DNA from: Dehalobacter restrictus DSM 9455
GTDB lineage: Bacteria > Bacillota > Desulfitobacteriia > Desulfitobacteriales > Syntrophobotulaceae
Direction of reading: 5' to 3'
Assembly (NCBI RefSeq): GCF_000512895.1
Contig: NZ_CP007033.1
Span: 1,084,001-1,148,000, forward strand
Length of the DNA stretch: 64,000 bases
The notes beneath the pieces are model-generated. The model worked only from the letters and a program-made list of their open reading frames with translations. It was not told the origin of the DNA and ran no database searches. The number at the start of each line of letters is the position of its first letter. Position 1 is the stretch's first letter. Below are positions 49,697-59,967 of this stretch, one piece after another. Both the position numbers and the translations under genes were made by a program.

Positions 49697-50158
49697 ATGG
49701 AAGAAACGGTTAAAGTTAGATTTAAACGAATTTCGGCCGGGGATACCCAAAAGCCTGAAATACCATTGTATGCAACCGCGGGGGCTGCCGGCGCAGATCT
49801 ATATGCCTGTCTGGACCAGAAAATGGTGGTGCGACCAGGGGAAAGAGTGAGAGTCCCGACCGGTATCGCTATAGAGCTGCCAGGTCCGCAAATCGCAGCT
49901 TTTGTATTTGCCCGCAGCGGCCTAGCGGATAAAAAAGGGCTTACCTTGAGTAACGGTGTCGGTGTTATTGATTCTGATTTCCGGGGTGAAATCAAAGTAT
50001 TAATGATCAATCTCGGGCAGGAAGACGTTACGATCAGCAACGGCGATCGAATTGCCCAGATCGCATTTATACCCGTCTGTAGGACTGCTTTTTACGAAGT
50101 AGAAGACCTTGGGGATACAGCCAGAGGTGAAGGGGGCTTTGGGTCGACGGGAGTCTAA
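49697..50158 (+). CDS. dut: Deoxyuridine 5'-triphosphate nucleotidohydrolase
   Basis: The 153-residue dUTPase has motif 1 AGAAGADLYAC, motif 3 NGVGVIDSDFRGE, the ARSGLADKKG segment and the C-terminal GGFGSTG arm. It lowers dUTP pools and supplies dUMP. ATG 49697 follows GAGGAAAAATTAGG. A strong terminator follows, marking the left edge of the accessory island. Confidence 0.96.
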   Translation: MEETVKVRFKRISAGDTQKPEIPLYATAGAAGADLYACLDQKMVVRPGERVRVPTGIAIELPGPQIAAFVFARSGLADKKGLTLSNGVGVIDSDFRGEIKVLMINLGQEDVTISNGDRIAQIAFIPVCRTAFYEVEDLGDTARGEGGFGSTGV

Positions 50159-50236: not shown

Positions 50237-50347
50237 CTAAGTTTCTGAGAATATAAGAGGCCGTTAAAGAAGGATATACCATATTTGCATAGAATTGTAA
50301 AAGATATATGGATATTTTTACATTATAGTTGTTGGAAGGTGATTTTG

Positions 50348-51085
50348 TTGTATAAAGCCGTTATTGTAGAAGATGATGTATTTTTTCGGCAGAAACTCGC
50401 AACGGTGATTTCCTCCACTTTAGATATTGAAGTCGTCTGCACATTTTCCAGCGGGGAAGAGTTCCTGATGCAAATCAACAAAATGCATCCTGATATTCTG
50501 TTTTTGGATATTGGTTTGCCAGGAATCTCCGGAATACAGGTAGCTGAATTAGTCAGGGAGGATTATCCGTACATGGAGATCATCCTGATCACAGCGGATG
50601 AACATTATCTCCAAGAGGCTGTACGCCTTTATGCCTCCGACTTCATCACCAAACCACTGGATATCGCAAGACTGAACCAAACGATGAGCAGAATTATGAA
50701 AAAGTCATTGATTCCAGGCTTACTGATTGAATTAAAAACGACTGATTCAGTGGAGATATTAAGGCAGGAGGAGATTTGTTTTGTGGAAGCAATGGCGAAA
50801 AAGAGTATCATTTATACCATGAAAAAAACCCTCACCTGTCTTCATCTGATACGGGAATTAGAGGAACGTTTGGATAAAAGACAGTTCTTTAGAAGCAATC
50901 GCTCCTATTTAGTCAATCTGCGATGGATTGATGCGGTCAGACCAACCTCCAGAACAACTTTTCAAATTACTTTTCAAGGTATAAAAGAAAGCGCTTATCT
51001 TCAAAAGAAACGCTATCCAGAATTCCGGGAACGTTTGAAACTATTTTTAGGAGAAGGTGGACAGAGTCAATGGCGCAGCGTTTAA
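50348..51085 (+). CDS. LytTR-family response regulator (AgrA-like)
   Basis: The N-terminal receiver has the acidic pocket VEDD and phospho-acceptor Asp54 in LFLDIGLPG, with the conserved Lys in FITKPLD. The C-terminal LytTR domain shows FFRSNRSYLVNL. TTG 50348 (or 50345) is the start, behind GGAAGGTGAT. It opens the agr-type operon and overlaps the next gene by 16 bp. It is expected to bind direct repeats spaced 21 bp, and candidates lie at 52883-52914 and 54652-54683. Confidence 0.88.
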   Translation: MYKAVIVEDDVFFRQKLATVISSTLDIEVVCTFSSGEEFLMQINKMHPDILFLDIGLPGISGIQVAELVREDYPYMEIILITADEHYLQEAVRLYASDFITKPLDIARLNQTMSRIMKKSLIPGLLIELKTTDSVEILRQEEICFVEAMAKKSIIYTMKKTLTCLHLIRELEERLDKRQFFRSNRSYLVNLRWIDAVRPTSRTTFQITFQGIKESAYLQKKRYPEFRERLKLFLGEGGQSQWRSV

Positions 51086-51570
51086 TAGAGATTATTATTT
51101 TTTCGATTCCTGAATCTATTGTGATCCTTTATTTAGCTTTTAGTATATTGGGTAAGAAAATTAACATGCTTAAAATGATAGAAATGGGATCCGTACTCGG
51201 GGTTGCTGTGTATATCTCACGTTGGATAACGGGAAGTTTTATCTTAAATATTGTAATATCCGCGTTAATGATTATTTTCCTTCTAAAGACCTTGGCCTCA
51301 ATCCCGGTTTTTGAAGCGGCAGCCGTCGGTTTATTAGCTATTTCTTCGTATTTATCGATCGAATTTGTCAATGTGAAGACCTGGCAGATTTTTTCAGGTG
51401 TCAGCCCAAATTTGATCGAAGAAGATTTACTTCTTAAAATTGTCTGGTTCATCCCCCAAATCCTTGTGATGTTGGGACTTCAGTTGCTCATCGGGCATTT
51501 TACCCGAAATAAAAAAACAATAAACCGAAAAAGTTCAAAGGAATTCAGGCATGAAGATCAATATTTATAA
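51070..51570 (+). CDS. Polytopic membrane protein of the agr locus (possible AgrC sensor half)
   Basis: The 166 residues contain about five hydrophobic spans, ending in a basic tail (RNKKTINRKSSKEF). No catalytic motif is seen. It lies between the response regulator and the kinase, overlapping both (16 bp and 20 bp). The usual AgrC has a single polytopic sensor fused to the kinase. Here this protein and the following kinase could together replace it. Confidence 0.6.
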   Translation: MAQRLIEIIIFSIPESIVILYLAFSILGKKINMLKMIEMGSVLGVAVYISRWITGSFILNIVISALMIIFLLKTLASIPVFEAAAVGLLAISSYLSIEFVNVKTWQIFSGVSPNLIEEDLLLKIVWFIPQILVMLGLQLLIGHFTRNKKTINRKSSKEFRHEDQYL

Positions 51571-52414
51571 AATATCTATTTTTGTTTTCGTTATACAGGC
51601 TCTATTCACCGTGATTCTGCTGAACAATGGTTATATGAAAAGTTATTCCTTCCTTCAGCCTGTGCATGCAGAATTACTGGAGTTGATTTTTGGCTTTATC
51701 ATTATTTTATTAAATTTAGTTGCCGTAGTTGTTGTCAAATCTTTGTACATGAAAGGGCTGGAAGATGAGAAACTGAAGTCAACTGAAATAAAATATGCCA
51801 ACCTGATTGAGCAAAATCGCATTTACCGTCAGCATCATCATGATTTGAAAAACCATCTCACCGTCATTCATGGCTTACTGAGTCTTGAAAAATACACTGA
51901 ATTAAGTGAATACCTGGATTCTTACATTCACTCTATAAACGATGTTTTATTGAAGGTCGATACAGGCGTTGATGAAATGGATATCCTTTTTACTTCTGAA
52001 ATTCAAGAAGCGAAGCATAAAAATATTGAAGTCAATTTAGTCCTGAAAACGAAAATCAAATGCAGCAAAAGGCATGTTCTAGATCTTGTAGGGATATTAG
52101 GGAATCTATTCAACAATGCAATAGAAGCCGTTCAGGAATTGGATCTTTCTTCCAGAAAAATCAGTATTATTTTTTACCAAGATCCCTTAGAATACACATT
52201 CCAATTCATTAATCCAATGTCTGCGACAAACGCCAACTCTGATAGACTTTTTGTAAAAGAAGGTTTTAGTACCAAAGGAGAAGACAGGGGACAAGGTTTA
52301 GCGATCGTAAGTAAGCTTGTTGAGCGATTGGATGGCAGTATAAACATTGACACTGCCAATCATCAATTTAGAATCATGGTAGAAATCCCCAAACATAACC
52401 TGGAGGAAGGGTGA
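51551..52414 (+). CDS. GHKL sensor histidine kinase (AgrC-like)
   Basis: Two N-terminal transmembrane spans (about 8-25 and 43-63) are followed by the dimerisation helix with QHHHDLKNHLTVIHG, whose phospho-acceptor is probably His97. The ATP-binding domain has the N-box GNLFNNAIEAVQ and GQGLAIV. This is the HPK10-like kinase class used by agr systems. ATG 51551 follows AAAGGA. Its sensor part has only two spans, unlike Staphylococcus AgrC. Confidence 0.85.
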   Translation: MKINIYKISIFVFVIQALFTVILLNNGYMKSYSFLQPVHAELLELIFGFIIILLNLVAVVVVKSLYMKGLEDEKLKSTEIKYANLIEQNRIYRQHHHDLKNHLTVIHGLLSLEKYTELSEYLDSYIHSINDVLLKVDTGVDEMDILFTSEIQEAKHKNIEVNLVLKTKIKCSKRHVLDLVGILGNLFNNAIEAVQELDLSSRKISIIFYQDPLEYTFQFINPMSATNANSDRLFVKEGFSTKGEDRGQGLAIVSKLVERLDGSINIDTANHQFRIMVEIPKHNLEEG

Positions 52415-52418
52415 GAAA

Positions 52419-52871
52419 TTGTTCAGTTTAGAGGAGATTGCTCATCATCTGACTGCAAATATGACTAAAGACAGCACGATGGATACTGCTCAAAAAGCGA
52501 AAATAGAATACGGATTATCCTTGACACTTGGCGTGATGATCGAATTTGTTTTGACGGTAGGTATATCCGCTTTTTTAGGGTCAACTGTTTATACACTCGT
52601 AATAATGCTTTCAGCTTTAGTTTTAAGGGTGTTTACCGGCGGGTCCCATTGCTCCAGTTACCGGCGTTGTCTTGTGTTTACAATACTAATTTTTGTCGGT
52701 TTATCATTAATTACCAAAATAATTGCAGTCAATACTCCTTTCAATGGAATAATTGAAATGTTCTTATTCCCTGCGATTATCGGCATAGCCGTTCAGGGAT
52801 TTATGTTGACTGGCATCGGTAAAAAGTTTGTAACAGCCAGTGATAGGGGCATGCAAAGAATGAAGATTTAA
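52419..52871 (+). CDS. agrB: AgrB-like peptide-processing membrane protease
   Basis: The 150-residue protein starts at TTG 52419. It has the AgrB signature RVFTGGSHCSSYRRC, where His77 and Cys84 occupy exactly the positions of the catalytic pair of S. aureus AgrB. Several membrane spans follow. It cleaves and cyclises the AgrD precursor. At 150 residues it is shorter than S. aureus AgrB (189). Its last ~40 codons (from 52752) belong to a duplicated segment that recurs at 54522. Confidence 0.9.
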   Translation: MFSLEEIAHHLTANMTKDSTMDTAQKAKIEYGLSLTLGVMIEFVLTVGISAFLGSTVYTLVIMLSALVLRVFTGGSHCSSYRRCLVFTILIFVGLSLITKIIAVNTPFNGIIEMFLFPAIIGIAVQGFMLTGIGKKFVTASDRGMQRMKI

Positions 52872-53112
52872 TCTGAGATGTCATTTCATTCCATCAAATG
52901 ATAATTTCATTCCAAAATCAACCATCCATTGTATATTTCATATAAACTATGACTACAGCATCCAAAAATATACAAAGGAGTTGAAAGGTATGGGGACTAC
53001 GAAGAAATTCAGATTTTCAATTATTTTACCCGTATTGGCGTTTATCGGGGCTATCGGGATCATAACGCCGAATTGCCTGGGATGGTTTTATGAACCGAAG
53101 AGACCTAAAAAG
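52752..53112 (+). repeat. Duplicated segment, copy 1 (agrB 3' end plus agrD)
   Basis: About 360 bp nearly identical to 54522-54881, covering the end of agrB, the intergenic repeats and agrD. Confidence 0.9.
52883..52946 (+). promoter_or_regulatory. Candidate LytTR-regulator binding site and promoter of agrD copy 1
   Basis: ATTTCATTCCA occurs at 52883-52893 and 52904-52914, with a 21-bp period. A TATAAA (-10 candidate) lies at 52941-52946, and the -35 region at about 52918-52923 is poor, consistent with an activator-dependent promoter. Confidence 0.55.
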
Positions 53113-53121
53113 CTGAATTAA
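52990..53121 (+). CDS. agrD: AgrD-like autoinducing peptide precursor, copy 1
   Basis: A 43-residue ORF with an amphipathic basic N-terminus (MGTTKKFRF), a hydrophobic helix, then PNCLGWFYEPKRPK. The order Cys, aromatic pair, then (Q/E)P..P matches AgrD peptides of clostridia, in which a five-residue thiolactone ring forms between Cys and the fifth residue. By analogy the ring would be Cys29-Leu-Gly-Trp-Phe33. ATG 52990 is preceded by AAAGGAGTTGAAAGG. Confidence 0.85.
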   Translation: MGTTKKFRFSIILPVLAFIGAIGIITPNCLGWFYEPKRPKKLN

Positions 53122-53168
53122 GAAAAAGTACATTTACAATTTACTTTATTAAAGGAGGTAAAGATACA

Positions 53169-53708
53169 ATGAAAAGAACAAAAAGAACAATGTTTACATT
53201 TGCTTTTGTTCTTCTACTTTTATTAGGCTTACAAGTTCCGACATATGCAGCACAAGACGGACAAATAAGAAAAGTTACTACTGGTGGAGTTAATATGCGT
53301 TCAGGACCTGGTAGTTCATATTCAGTTATAATGACATTGTCTCAAGGTGAAGCACTTGCTTACCAAAGCACAAGTGGCGATTGGGATTATTTTAAAGGAT
53401 GGAAGTATACAACAAGTTCTATCGTAAATGGTTATGTCCCTTCCGGGTCTGCTGTATCGTTTACTTTAGCAACAGCCAAATATGCTTTAAGCATTTATTC
53501 ATCAGAAAGCGACTCAAGTTATGTTGGTTATGATGTACCTGCAAATGCGTATCTAAATGTTGATACAATGGCGTTCAACAGTTATTCCAATCTCTACTAT
53601 CTAAGATTAACATCGTATGTTTCCGGAGGAACTTTGAATTATCAAAACGGGTATGTTCACACTAATTTTAGAACGTCTTCACCGTCAAATTATTATATAA
53701 ACATATAG
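53169..53708 (+). CDS. Secreted SH3b-domain protein
   Basis: A signal peptide (residues 1-28, ending TYAAQD) precedes a bacterial SH3 domain, recognised by VNMRSGPGSSYSVI and the glycine/tyrosine pattern. The C-terminal half repeats a similar beta-rich layout and is Ser/Tyr-rich. SH3b domains bind cell-wall peptides. ATG 53169 follows AAAGGAGGTAAAG. It lies between the two agrD copies and is a plausible quorum-controlled product. Confidence 0.8.
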   Translation: MKRTKRTMFTFAFVLLLLLGLQVPTYAAQDGQIRKVTTGGVNMRSGPGSSYSVIMTLSQGEALAYQSTSGDWDYFKGWKYTTSSIVNGYVPSGSAVSFTLATAKYALSIYSSESDSSYVGYDVPANAYLNVDTMAFNSYSNLYYLRLTSYVSGGTLNYQNGYVHTNFRTSSPSNYYINI

Positions 53709-53733
53709 TTTTTTAAAAGAAGGAGGGATTTAC

Positions 53734-54300
53734 ATGAAATTTTCGTTTAACAAAATAGCTATTGTATTAACAATAGTCGCGATCATGTTAATCGGGAGTA
53801 TAGCTGTTTATGCAAGTAGTAATATACAATCACCCAAGATTGCTTCAATAACCAAGGTAGAACCAAATAAAGTCCTTCGTGGCACTTGGAATTTAACTGT
53901 GACAGAAATAGCATTTTATCCAGGAAGCACAGTTCCAGATCAAAAGGGTGCGTCTATTACAATTAAGATGGACAATGTTGATGGACCAGGGAAATCTTTT
54001 CTGCCAACTGGCTTCATTACTGCTTTAGTCGGAGAAAGTGGCAAAGTTTATGAATTGGACACGAATCATCCGTTTGATAAATTATATACCTCTAGTCAAG
54101 ATGCTATGAAAATGGAAGCGAAAGAAAAGGGGATGAATTACGAACCGGGAGTCTTTAAAATTAAAGCACACTTGATGGTTGATAGAAGCGAAAAAAACAT
54201 TTCCAAAGTAATCTATCAAAATGAGAAAGGAGAAAAAATAGAAATACCTATTCAAGGGATTACGCCGGTAGATGTTCAGCCTAATTCAGACGCAAAATAA
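53734..54300 (+). CDS. Secreted or anchored protein, unknown function
   Basis: Residues 1-27 form a signal peptide or anchor ending in IAVYASS. The 160-residue remainder is beta-strand-like, with no family I recognise. ATG 53734 follows GAAGGAGGGA. It is followed by a terminator, and both it and the SH3b gene are framed by the duplicated agr segments. Confidence 0.65.
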   Translation: MKFSFNKIAIVLTIVAIMLIGSIAVYASSNIQSPKIASITKVEPNKVLRGTWNLTVTEIAFYPGSTVPDQKGASITIKMDNVDGPGKSFLPTGFITALVGESGKVYELDTNHPFDKLYTSSQDAMKMEAKEKGMNYEPGVFKIKAHLMVDRSEKNISKVIYQNEKGEKIEIPIQGITPVDVQPNSDAK

Positions 54301-54314
54301 ATAAAGTAGGAAGA

Positions 54315-54344
54315 AAGGCTGCGGATTTGAACGTAGCCTTTTTT
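54315..54344 (+). terminator. Terminator after the 53734-54300 gene
   Basis: AAGGCTGCG (54315-54323) pairs with CGTAGCCTT (54332-54340), followed by T run. Confidence 0.85.
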
Positions 54345-54521
54345 AACAAGCACTATTATCATGAGTTCGTACATGTTCATGTCTGGGAGGAAAGCGTGAG
54401 AAAAAAGTGACCTTTTCTCGATAAAACGGGCACTGGGTTTTCTAACGAATTCTCATGAACTCTCAATATTTCGATTTGGAAGCAGAAGACCGCCCTCGCC
54501 GGGTGGCAGAAGGCCATTGTC

Positions 54522-54640
54522 ATTGAAATGTGCTTATCGCCTGCGATTATCGGCATAACCGTTCAGGGATTTATGTTGACTGGTATTGGCAAAAAGTTTG
54601 TAACAGCCAGTGATAGGGGCATGCAAAGAATGAGATTTAA
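54522..54640 (+). pseudogene. Truncated second copy of the agrB 3' end
   Basis: It repeats the agrB C-terminal region (IGITVQGFMLTGIGKKFV) but has no N-terminal catalytic part. One A is missing relative to copy 1 near 54631, so the frame runs through the original stop site. It shows the duplication junction at about 54522 and cannot encode a protease. Confidence 0.85.
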
Positions 54641-54651
54641 TCTCAGATGTT

Positions 54652-54683
54652 ATTTCATTCCATCAAATGATAATTTCATTCCA
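54652..54683 (+). promoter_or_regulatory. Candidate LytTR binding site upstream of agrD copy 2
   Basis: The two ATTTCATTCCA repeats are retained exactly, 21 bp apart, showing the control region was duplicated with agrD. Confidence 0.55.
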
Positions 54684-54758
54684 AAATCAACCATCCATTG
54701 TATATTTCATATAAACTATGACTACAGCATCCAAAAATATACAAAGGAGTTGAAAGGT

Positions 54759-54890
54759 ATGGGGACTACGAAGAAATTCAGATTTTCAATTATTTTACCC
54801 GTATTGGCGTTTATCGGGGCTATCGGGATCATAACGCCCAATTGCCTAGGATGGTTCTATGAACCGAACAGACCCAAAGAGTTAAGGTAA
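54759..54890 (+). CDS. agrD: AgrD-like autoinducing peptide precursor, copy 2
   Basis: 43 residues, the same as copy 1 through Pro36, including the predicted ring CLGWF. It differs only after the ring (EPNRPKELR instead of EPKRPKKLN). Both copies therefore predict the same signal, with changes limited to the C-terminal recognition tail that AgrB removes. It has the same AAAGGAGTTGAAAGG ribosome binding site. Confidence 0.8.
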   Translation: MGTTKKFRFSIILPVLAFIGAIGIITPNCLGWFYEPNRPKELR

Positions 54891-54998: not shown

Positions 54999-55445
54999 AT
55001 GAATAAAAAGAAACTAGTTTCAAGGATTGGATTATGTGTTGGAGCATTAGCCCTCGTATTGATTGTGGGGTATTCGGGAAGCGCTTTTTCCGATAGCAAT
55101 AACAAGTATTTAGATAAAGAATACTCCGTCAAAGAATCAATTCAAAGATCTTTTGACTTGGACAATCAAGGCCTAAAGCCAATTTATTTAAGAGATCTAT
55201 TTGATGATAGCATTGCAACAGAAAGTGATGAAGTTAGATCAAAGCTTATTTCATGTTATAAAATGCTACGTCAAGAAAATGAGATTGCCCAAGGAGACTT
55301 TAAGCCCATATTTTACCTGGACGGAAAAGAAAAAGTATTTATAGGGGTATTGCATCCGAATGATAGCATTACTCTTACCGAATTTGATATATCAAAAGAT
55401 AAACCTGAAAAAATCGATAAAAAGGTAAAGGAGGCAGCGAAATAA
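54999..55445 (+). CDS. Exported protein, unknown function
   Basis: ATG 54999 (MNKKKLVSRIGL) follows AAAGAGGTGAT. An N-terminal hydrophobic segment (residues 10-30) ends in SGSAFSDS, so it is exported or anchored. The rest is a charged helical domain with EYSVKESIQRSFDL. No family is recognised. The next secreted gene starts 1 bp after its stop, so the two form an operon. Confidence 0.6.
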   Translation: MNKKKLVSRIGLCVGALALVLIVGYSGSAFSDSNNKYLDKEYSVKESIQRSFDLDNQGLKPIYLRDLFDDSIATESDEVRSKLISCYKMLRQENEIAQGDFKPIFYLDGKEKVFIGVLHPNDSITLTEFDISKDKPEKIDKKVKEAAK

Positions 55446-55446
55446 G

Positions 55447-55809
55447 ATGAAAAAGAAGCTAATTCCTTTATTAACTTTAACTATTATCTTATGTTCTTCA
55501 GTAGCAGCTTACGCTGTAACAATGTCAGGTAGCTCTTCAATTCAAACTGGATATATCAATATGACCTGCACATCAACTACCACTACAAGTGAATCGTGGG
55601 CGAAATGGGTTTTAAACGATTTTTATCAAGATGGCATACTTCGGAATAACAGTGAAAATAGTAATTTGACTGGAACGTCTGTATCTACTTCATGTAATGC
55701 ACTTAATATTCCAGGAACTCAAGTTTGGGAATGCTATGGGGAACATGGAATAGGTCTTGATGACGGCACTGAATTAATTAAATATTCATATGCAACTAAG
55801 AATTGGTAA
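55447..55809 (+). CDS. Small secreted protein, unknown function
   Basis: A signal peptide (MKKKLIPLLTLTIILC, then VAAYA) precedes about 95 residues rich in Ser, Thr and Asn, with three Cys. The composition resembles secreted peptides such as bacteriocin-like proteins, but no motif proves it. It directly follows the 54999 gene. Confidence 0.6.
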   Translation: MKKKLIPLLTLTIILCSSVAAYAVTMSGSSSIQTGYINMTCTSTTTTSESWAKWVLNDFYQDGILRNNSENSNLTGTSVSTSCNALNIPGTQVWECYGEHGIGLDDGTELIKYSYATKNW

Positions 55810-56147
55810 AGAATACCACGAAATACACCATTCAAACGAAAACATATGATACAGTGGAAGCTGTATTACAGGGAAAATAACATTATAGAAAAATCTAATG
55901 TTTAATATTTTTAACTAGTACAGAAGTATAGATTTCAGAGCTGATAAAAATTAATTATATGACTACTTTTAGTCTACTGCTTACGCCTGATAATGGTTAC
56001 GGCAGTAGGCTGTTTTCTAATGTATCTAGTTCAATTCATTCTTTCAATATTTATCATATCTGGGAGGAAAGGATATGCATTTTTCGACGTCGTCGTCTTT
56101 GGGACAAACCTGAGCGTATAAAACGAAGACTCCATGATGTCAACCGA
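55810..56147. other. Intergenic stretch before the IS66 element
   Basis: An inverted repeat CTACTGC/GCAGTAG around 55975-56010 is followed by GCTGTTTTC and may terminate transcription. A weak frame (55959-56222) crosses the IS end and is not credible as a gene. Nothing else was seen. Confidence 0.5.
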
Positions 56148-58723: not shown

Positions 58724-58741
58724 AAACATTCTCGTGGGAAA
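58724..58741 (+). repeat. Right half of the interrupted palindrome
   Basis: AAACATTCTCGTGGGAAA, exact complement of 56148-56165. The reconstructed pre-insertion site is an 18-bp stem with a 7-nt loop. Confidence 0.85.
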
Positions 58742-58755
58742 GTTAAGTTAATTAA

Positions 58756-59967
58756 TTATTGCTTAAGCCTTTTCGGCTTTTTCAAAAAGAAAGTCAAAAA
58801 GACTGCTAACAAACATAGGATACACGAAATGGTAAACGCAAGTGAATAGCTTTTTGTGGCATCGGCGATTCGGGCTGCCATTAGGGGGCCAAAGACACCC
58901 CCGACACCCCAGGCAGTAAAGACAAAACCATAATTTACTCCGGCATGTTTTGTACCAAAATAGTCATAGGTTGCTGATGGGAAGAGTGAAAGCAAAGAAC
59001 CGTAGCCTAATCCTGCAATCGCTGCACCCAACGCAATTAATACCGGAGTATTGTAAGTGCTGAAAGCGAGCATGTTGAGTGCCTGGATCAAAAAGAAAAT
59101 ACGCATCGACCAGGAACGCCCTATTTTATCGGAAAGCCAACCGGCAATAACCCTGCCGGAGGCATTGAAAACGGCCAGTAAAGCGACCATCGCGTACCCC
59201 CAGGAAATACCGGCCTGCGTCTTGGCAATTGAAGAAAGCTGGCTGATGATCATCAGCCCGGCGCTGGCTCCTGCCGCATACATCACCCAAAGCAGATAGA
59301 ATTCCCGTCTTATAAGCATTTGCTGCCAGTTTAGGCCTCCTGTCGAGGCAGTAGCCGCTGAAGGGGAAGCCGTACTGCTCTGAGATTGGCCACTTAAAGT
59401 GGAAGGGACAGTCAGCAGCTGGGCAAGCAAAACAATAATTAGTAAGAACAGGATCCCTTCAATACGGAAGGTGCTCTCTATGCCAAACTTTCTCAGCAAT
59501 GCATTGGTTAATGGTGCGATATAAAGAGAAGCCAAACCAAAGCCGGCAACAACGACACCCGAGATCAGACCTTTTTTCTCTGGGGGAAACCATTTGACTG
59601 CGGCAGGTGTCGCAGCCGAGTATCCGAGACCGATCCCCATCCCGGCAATTAAACCGAAAGTAACGATCAGCATGGTCAGTGAGTGCGTAAAGCTGCTCAG
59701 GATTAAGCCACTGCCTGCCATGATTCCGCCAAGGGCAGCAATCCAGCGGGGGCCGTACCGGTCTTGAAGATATCCGCCGGGAACCATCATCAAGGCAAAC
59801 ACTGCGCAGGCGACCATATACGGAACAGAAGCCGCTGTCTTAGTCCAGTGAAATTGCTCAATCAGGGCAGCTGCAAAGACGCTCCAGGTGTAAAGGACAC
59901 CAAGGGCCAAATTAATACCTGTTCCGGCCAAAGTAACTGTCCAACCTTGTTTCGCTCTGTTCATCAT
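58756..59967 (-). CDS. MFS transporter of the oxalate/formate antiporter (OFA) type
   Basis: The start MMNRAKQGWTVTLAG is at 59967, behind GAAAGGAAGAT; the frame continues upstream to 60153 without a good site. About twelve membrane spans follow, with the OFA-family N-terminus LALGVLYTWSVFAAALIEQF and GGYLQDRYGPR, the MFS loop motif. Family members exchange carboxylates such as oxalate and formate. The substrate here is unknown. Confidence 0.88.
   Translation of the reverse strand: MMNRAKQGWTVTLAGTGINLALGVLYTWSVFAAALIEQFHWTKTAASVPYMVACAVFALMMVPGGYLQDRYGPRWIAALGGIMAGSGLILSSFTHSLTMLIVTFGLIAGMGIGLGYSAATPAAVKWFPPEKKGLISGVVVAGFGLASLYIAPLTNALLRKFGIESTFRIEGILFLLIIVLLAQLLTVPSTLSGQSQSSTASPSAATASTGGLNWQQMLIRREFYLLWVMYAAGASAGLMIISQLSSIAKTQAGISWGYAMVALLAVFNASGRVIAGWLSDKIGRSWSMRIFFLIQALNMLAFSTYNTPVLIALGAAIAGLGYGSLLSLFPSATYDYFGTKHAGVNYGFVFTAWGVGGVFGPLMAARIADATKSYSLAFTISCILCLLAVFLTFFLKKPKRLKQ

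Follow-up and report, generated by a model that had tools for sequence, protein, structure and literature searches.

A repeated signal-gene head in the Agr locus of Dehalobacter restrictus suggests that a new signal-controlled operon arose when the signal gene was copied along with its switch

Agr systems are usually drawn with one signal gene in one operon and a regulator that acts elsewhere. The agrBDCA systems of Listeria monocytogenes and Staphylococcus aureus contain genes for AgrB, AgrD, a GHKL kinase and a LytTR regulator, as does the locus of Dehalobacter restrictus described here, and the Listeria peptide CFMFV, with its five-residue ring, is a precedent for the ring CLGWF predicted in this species (PMC4916163). 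The two layouts differ, however, in that D. restrictus has the order agrA-sensor-kinase-agrB-agrD, that its AgrB is short and its AgrC apparently split, and that agrD is copied before a second cargo operon. A second agrD without its own agrB is likewise found in Clostridium autoethanogenum, where the AgrB of the other locus is presumed to process the product (PMC8748961). In that species agrD1 and agrD2 predict different rings, are each served by an agrC of their own and lie in separate operons, whereas in D. restrictus the ring is the same and the copies, which share one control system, lead cargo genes. The orphan AgrD Clo1313_2818 of Clostridium thermocellum is encoded away from any agr operon and its mature cyclic pentapeptide was still detected; it is a single gene, for which no duplicated control region or cargo was described (PMC5322536). 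In Clostridium acetobutylicum, the Agr effector gene CA_C0082 lies directly downstream of the agr cluster, like the cargo here, and the available part of that report describes no copying of agrD before further effectors (PMC10301443). Orphan agrD genes (PMC8748961, PMC5322536) and effectors beside agr (PMC10301443) are already known. For a layout with a repeated head, no description was found in the open-access literature, to which the search was confined, and its novelty is provisional.

D. restrictus is an organohalide-respiring bacterium that is used in bioremediation, and the locus points to an Agr system in such an organism; in three genome papers on Dehalobacter, a keyword search gave no mention of quorum sensing. 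The D. restrictus genome is a single contig of 2,943,336 bases, of which a stretch of 64,000 nucleotides (G000:C1:1084001-1148000), hereafter the window, was analysed. The locus (Table 1) runs from an agrA-like LytTR regulator through a 166-aa membrane protein, a GHKL kinase, a short agrB, agrD1 and cargo genes A1 and A2 to an agrB fragment, agrD2 and cargo genes B1 and B2, after which follow genes that we take to be IS66-like from their sequence features. The TTG start of agrA at 50348 was set from its relatives; the open reading frame opens at 50285. Of the components of an Agr system, AgrB, AgrD and the LytTR regulator are present, and an AgrC with its polytopic sensor domain in one protein is not. 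The kinase matches the AgrC profile NF046015 only from profile position 138, so that the first part of the sensor domain is missing, and the missing part appears to be encoded as a separate protein: the 166-aa protein shows homology (E 2e-10) to a single fused kinase of 476 aa from G020 (L021 108-1538), over that kinase's residues 9-136. AgrC thus appears to be split into a 166-aa sensor and a 287-aa kinase, a form that recurs in the relatives read.

AgrB carries the equivalents of the S. aureus peptidase residues R70, G75, H77 and C84, which are invariant in the alignment (A2) and whose roles are described in that species (PMC10196373). It is not of standard length (about 190-210 aa, with a basic cytoplasmic loop, K129-131 of S. 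aureus) but belongs to a group of short AgrBs of 145-154 aa (window 52419-52871, L037, L038, L039, L040, L034 and L035). Approximately 45-65 central residues between alignment columns 118 and 181, the region of the basic loop among them, are absent from all seven short AgrBs aligned, and these columns are wholly or partly filled in the canonical AgrBs and in a relative from another family (G043, L077 668-1261). Because this relative is longer, the short AgrB looks like the result of an internal deletion that was kept across the family. Elsewhere, the genome carries a second short agrB, which is 60% identical and next to which no agrD was found (L034 5971-6435; L035 7645-8265; L036). It occupies the same place across Dehalobacter species, adjoining a cobT-like gene and a gene for a 161-aa exported protein.

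Table 1. Features of the Agr locus and its two output units (window coordinates).
Feature	Position	Strand	Basis
agrA-like response regulator with LytTR DNA-binding domain	50348..51085	+	Pfam Response_reg 1.9e-22, LytTR 3.8e-18
166-aa membrane protein, proposed sensor half of split AgrC	51070..51570	+	homology (E 2e-10), operon conservation
287-aa GHKL histidine kinase, AgrC-like	51551..52414	+	NF046015 AgrC, HATPase_c_5 3.1e-16
agrB, short form, 150 aa, only complete agrB of the locus	52419..52871	+	Pfam AgrB 7.4e-23
Repeat copy 1: agrB 3' end, LytTR-type repeat, agrD1	52752..53121	+	
LytTR-type direct repeat, copy 1, TTTCATTCC-N12-TTTCATTCC	52884..52913	+	exact pattern
agrD1, predicted ring CLGWF	52990..53121	+	TIGR04223 6.1e-07
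Cargo A1, secreted protein with SH3_3 domain	53169..53708	+	SH3_3 4.6e-07, signal-like N-terminus
Cargo A2, exported 188-aa protein	53734..54300	+	relatives in 14 other genomes, E <= 0.05
Terminator-like hairpin closing unit A	54311..54344	+	-19 kcal/mol, z -5.2
Remnant of one end of IS3-like element, abutting copy 2	54409..54516	+	82% identity
Repeat copy 2: agrB 3' fragment without active site, LytTR-type repeat, agrD2	54522..54890	+	
LytTR-type direct repeat, copy 2, identical to copy 1	54653..54682	+	exact pattern
agrD2, predicted ring CLGWF, three tail substitutions	54759..54890	+	TIGR04223 3.4e-06
Cargo B1, exported 148-aa protein	54999..55445	+	signal-like N-terminus
Cargo B2, secreted 120-aa protein, no known family	55447..55809	+	relatives in G034 (E 2e-15), G043 (3.5e-12)
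Terminator-like hairpin closing unit B	55970..56011	+	-21 kcal/mol, z -4.0; scanner match 55999-56013

The starting point of the analysis was the claim that a segment with the end of agrB, control repeats and agrD is present twice, 1.77 kb apart. This is indeed the case, with a start-to-start distance of 1769-1770 nt and two repeat families, one of 112 nt at 94% and one of 258 nt at 95%. The agrB end is duplicated to the extent that copy 2 holds a fragment encoding aa 111-149 of 150; the catalytic His and Cys are absent from it and it has a 1-nt deletion. That copy 2 is an assembly error was ruled out, as the copies differ by 5% and have different neighbours in a finished genome (PMC3910700). 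An RNA element at the junction was rejected as well, there being no Rfam match. The 20 differences over 370 aligned columns are unevenly spread: 10 lie in the first 131 columns and 10 in the last 52, with the 187 columns between them free of differences, and a run of this kind was not obtained in any of 20,000 random placements (P < 5e-5). The identical 187-bp core, between flanks that differ by 8-19%, contains the first 27 codons of agrD together with the LytTR-type repeat, promoter region and ribosome-binding site that precede them. Judged against relatives, the agrB fragment in copy 2 is the derived one and is decaying, and of the changes that can be polarised the majority are derived in copy 2; the agrD tails have changed in both copies. 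D. restrictus itself is represented in these comparisons by a single genome.

Binding sites of AgrA and other LytTR regulators are 9-bp direct repeats 12 bp apart. In D. restrictus, the candidate direct-repeat AgrA site upstream of regulated promoters is provided by the control repeats, which have the form TTTCATTCC-N12-TTTCATTCC and sit 77 nt upstream of each agrD. This exact pattern occurs at two sites in the 2.94-Mb genome, one before each agrD. With one mismatch, the sole extra site lies inside a GntR-like open reading frame, and with up to three mismatches the pattern is no commoner in the genome than a reversed control; the idea of a large regulon under this box was rejected on these counts. 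A repeat with a 21-bp period is present at the same place upstream of agrD in the five relatives examined (G006, G008, G010, G011 and G012). More widely, of 24 agrD genes from several families, 15 are preceded, mostly at a distance of 72-86 nt, by a 9-N12-9 repeat with no more than one mismatch, where 200 shuffles gave a mean of 0.43 and a maximum of 3 for the same 24 genes. From the position of the boxes and the LytTR domain of the regulator, we infer that AgrA binds both. The original prediction had proposed that a second agrD might decouple the control of the signal. Since the two copies do not differ in LytTR-type repeat, promoter region or ribosome-binding site, control is duplicated rather than decoupled.

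Each head is followed by a pair of cargo genes and a terminator-like hairpin, that of unit A carrying a U run. No homology was found between cargo pairs A and B. The idea that the cargo consists of known defence or bacteriocin proteins was dropped, since, apart from the SH3 domain, nothing in Pfam, NCBIfam or PADLOC was matched; B2 has no match in Pfam, NCBIfam or PADLOC, nor a plasmid match. Both pairs also occur elsewhere in the order, A1 with A2 in two genomes (G043 and G003; L118, L121) and B1 with B2 in three (G043, G061 and G028; L111, L113, L114), in each case with no agr gene in the surrounding DNA read. In relatives with a single agrD, this gene precedes other secreted proteins, such as an M10-type metalloprotease (G006) and an M23 peptidase (G010). 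By a crude rule, an exported-type N-terminus was assigned to 14 of the 22 first genes after agrD and to 50 of 266 other open reading frames. Since the secreted proteins after agrD differ between relatives, agrD heads a variable slot for secreted cargo, of which the D. restrictus genome has two.

The probable explanation, in our judgement, is that the Agr locus gained a quorum-controlled operon by the copying of a unit of 3' remnant, AgrA box and agrD before new cargo. The locus would then carry two parallel output operons, each composed of an AgrA-type repeat with promoter region, an agrD gene, an unrelated secreted pair and a terminator-like hairpin. The second head would have arisen by copying of the segment from the agrB 3' end through agrD, so that the quorum control of pair A would extend to cargo pair B. 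The signal gene would travel with the promoter, which lies between it and agrB: copying an AgrA-controlled promoter from between the upstream gene and agrD to a place before new genes would copy agrD too, and the recombination would leave a 3' stump of the upstream gene. Both precursors would be processed to one predicted cyclic pentapeptide, CLGWF, either by the AgrB of the locus or by the orphan AgrB. The split AgrC and AgrA would detect this signal and in turn activate expression of both units. The D. restrictus signal gene, in other words, heads each output operon and would have been copied with it, a concrete and testable route by which a quorum regulon may grow.

Both 43-residue precursors score above the AgrD cut-off of TIGR04223 (29.5 and 27.1 bits versus 19) and contain the same predicted ring, C29-L-G-W-F33. 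An AgrD is defined here by an amphipathic leader, a Cys/Ser ring and a Pro-x-x-Pro tail, and C29, P36 and P39 are invariant in the alignment (A1). The three protein differences, K37N, K41E and N43R, all lie C-terminal to the ring, in the tail that AgrB would remove, as had been foreseen. AgrB recognises this tail, and in S. aureus cleavage requires D33 and E34 of the tail (PMC10196373). It is conceivable, at a very low probability, that the tail changes alter the handling of AgrD2 by AgrB and thereby its timing or product, which would make the two precursors functionally different. Against this, Y34, P36 and P39, which are common to relatives, and E35 are unchanged in both copies, and tails vary freely among relatives. 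By analogy, E35, P36 and P39 correspond to the tail features required in S. aureus (PMC10196373) and to the Pro-x-x-Pro motif (PMC8748961). The coding sequences of agrD1 and agrD2 are separated by 6 synonymous and 4 nonsynonymous changes (pS 0.208, pN 0.040; pN/pS 0.19, Fisher P 0.009), and the pooled pN/pS is 0.16 over nine agrD pairs, some of which have a member in common. The agrD genes are under purifying selection, which suggests that the extra signal genes are in use, at least for a time. What had been proposed for the two genes is borne out for the ring, the tail and the single complete agrB of the locus, not for the genome as a whole, given the second short agrB, nor for decoupling; the cargo pairs, the recurrence of the layout and the other short AgrB had gone unnoticed.

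Mobile DNA lies close to the second head. The IS3-like remnant next to copy 2 resembles one end of an IS3-like, transposase-like element at G000:C1:2415307, and the IS66-like element lies 3' of the locus. Together with the decay of the agrB fragment in copy 2, this would fit a chance partial duplication, an IS-linked by-product in which the second agrD and promoter have no role and gene conversion keeps the copies alike. The identical tract between diverged flanks has the look of a gene-conversion footprint, and gene conversion alone could account for the identity of the core. We nevertheless regard this as rather unlikely, because the changes in agrD spare the ring and are mostly synonymous, copy 2 is followed by an intact cargo pair and hairpin, and the same layout is found in other families with a different upstream gene. 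A variant of the copying route would be that the whole operon was duplicated and its front then lost. This is hinted at by an 18-mer, TCATRTCTGGGAGGAAAG, that follows each cargo pair (window 54377-54394 and 56054-56071) and for which no better alignment was found when 455 random pairs of regions from the window were compared. It resembles a ribosome-binding site with the beginning of a gene since lost, and the two units may thus have had a downstream flank in common, although nothing similar to this flank occurs upstream of agrA.

Three other Dehalobacter species (L104, L105, L106) have a clean empty site, in which window position 50151 is joined to about 58741-58775; the 8.6 kb absent there take in the complete agr locus with its two cargo pairs, plus the IS66-like element. 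In G006, the operon is found at the same place with 68-71% nucleotide identity, which is similar to its flanks. Horizontal transfer of the locus was considered and set aside, as this position and flank-like divergence are better fitted by vertical descent with loss in the three other species. With a close AgrD profile, two close agrD genes in tandem were found only in D. restrictus among 74 genomes of the order, a singularity that does not hold in a wider census of the phylum.

This census, made with TIGR04223 over 398 genomes, gives lower bounds for tandem and repeated agrD genes among the matches listed. In G130, two agrD genes encode an identical protein 3.3 kb apart and a piece of agrA (residues 171-241) precedes the second; in G375, the ring CWFHF occurs twice and agrA residues 143-239 precede the second agrD; and in G361, an agrA 3' fragment accompanies an agrD copy (all among the matches listed). 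At least five agrD genes, all with the ring CWFHW, are present in G142, two of them in full operons and three not, and G100 has at least four CWFHW genes, three of which are preceded by agrA fragments (82-226, 82-240 and 201-235). This CWFHW family may represent one lineage rather than many independent events. Tandem copies in G291 and G364 have one ring each and different exported proteins downstream (among the matches listed). G406 has at least three copies with the ring SIWIL and no clear cargo, and the rings of the tandem copies in G158 differ (SIWFL/SMWFL, among the matches listed); no gene of at least 100 aa lies within 650 nt after the tandem copies of these two genomes. The second agrD copy in L137 is without its N-terminus and looks broken. 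As some extra copies look broken, keeping the signal gene is not always needed. The donor of the 3' remnant is whichever gene precedes agrD, namely agrB in Dehalobacter and agrA in the others, a difference that argues for at least two separate origins of the layout, of which the agrD pair in D. restrictus is one instance.

Among the matches listed, nearly all tandem agrD copies elsewhere also have the same ring, and the separate agr loci of these genomes have other rings, so that ring sharing is a property of the repeated copies. Ring identity in D. restrictus and elsewhere, and purifying selection on agrD, would also be expected if two agrD genes had been selected for more peptide from one AgrB, with the cargo incidental. 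A higher signal dose is possible, but as the driving force we consider it improbable: in most readable cases the exported proteins that follow the copies differ, a gain in dosage by itself would not require a box, a hairpin and new cargo every time, and AgrB processing rather than agrD copy number may limit output. The copying of a head before new cargo remains our preferred reading, and we give even chances to its extension, a distributed autoinducer, in which each Agr-controlled operon in several Bacillota lineages begins with its own copy of the signal gene, spread as 3' remnant of the upstream gene, AgrA box and agrD. If so, switching on any output would also feed the signal, and output and signal production are predicted to be wired together operon by operon. 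For genome mining, a head of remnant, box and agrD offers a handle that flags candidate quorum-controlled secreted proteins.

Signal divergence is unusually small for an Agr system. The predicted ring CLGWF is common to several genera and to another family (G043), and G008 has CFGWF (L037, L039, L041, L042, L077 and the window). The D. restrictus genome contains a second complete agrB-agrD pair (L043 5767-6473; G000:C1:877.8-878.5 kb), with an AgrB of standard length and the ring CGYWA, which is conserved in other Dehalobacter species beside a hemolysin-III-like gene.
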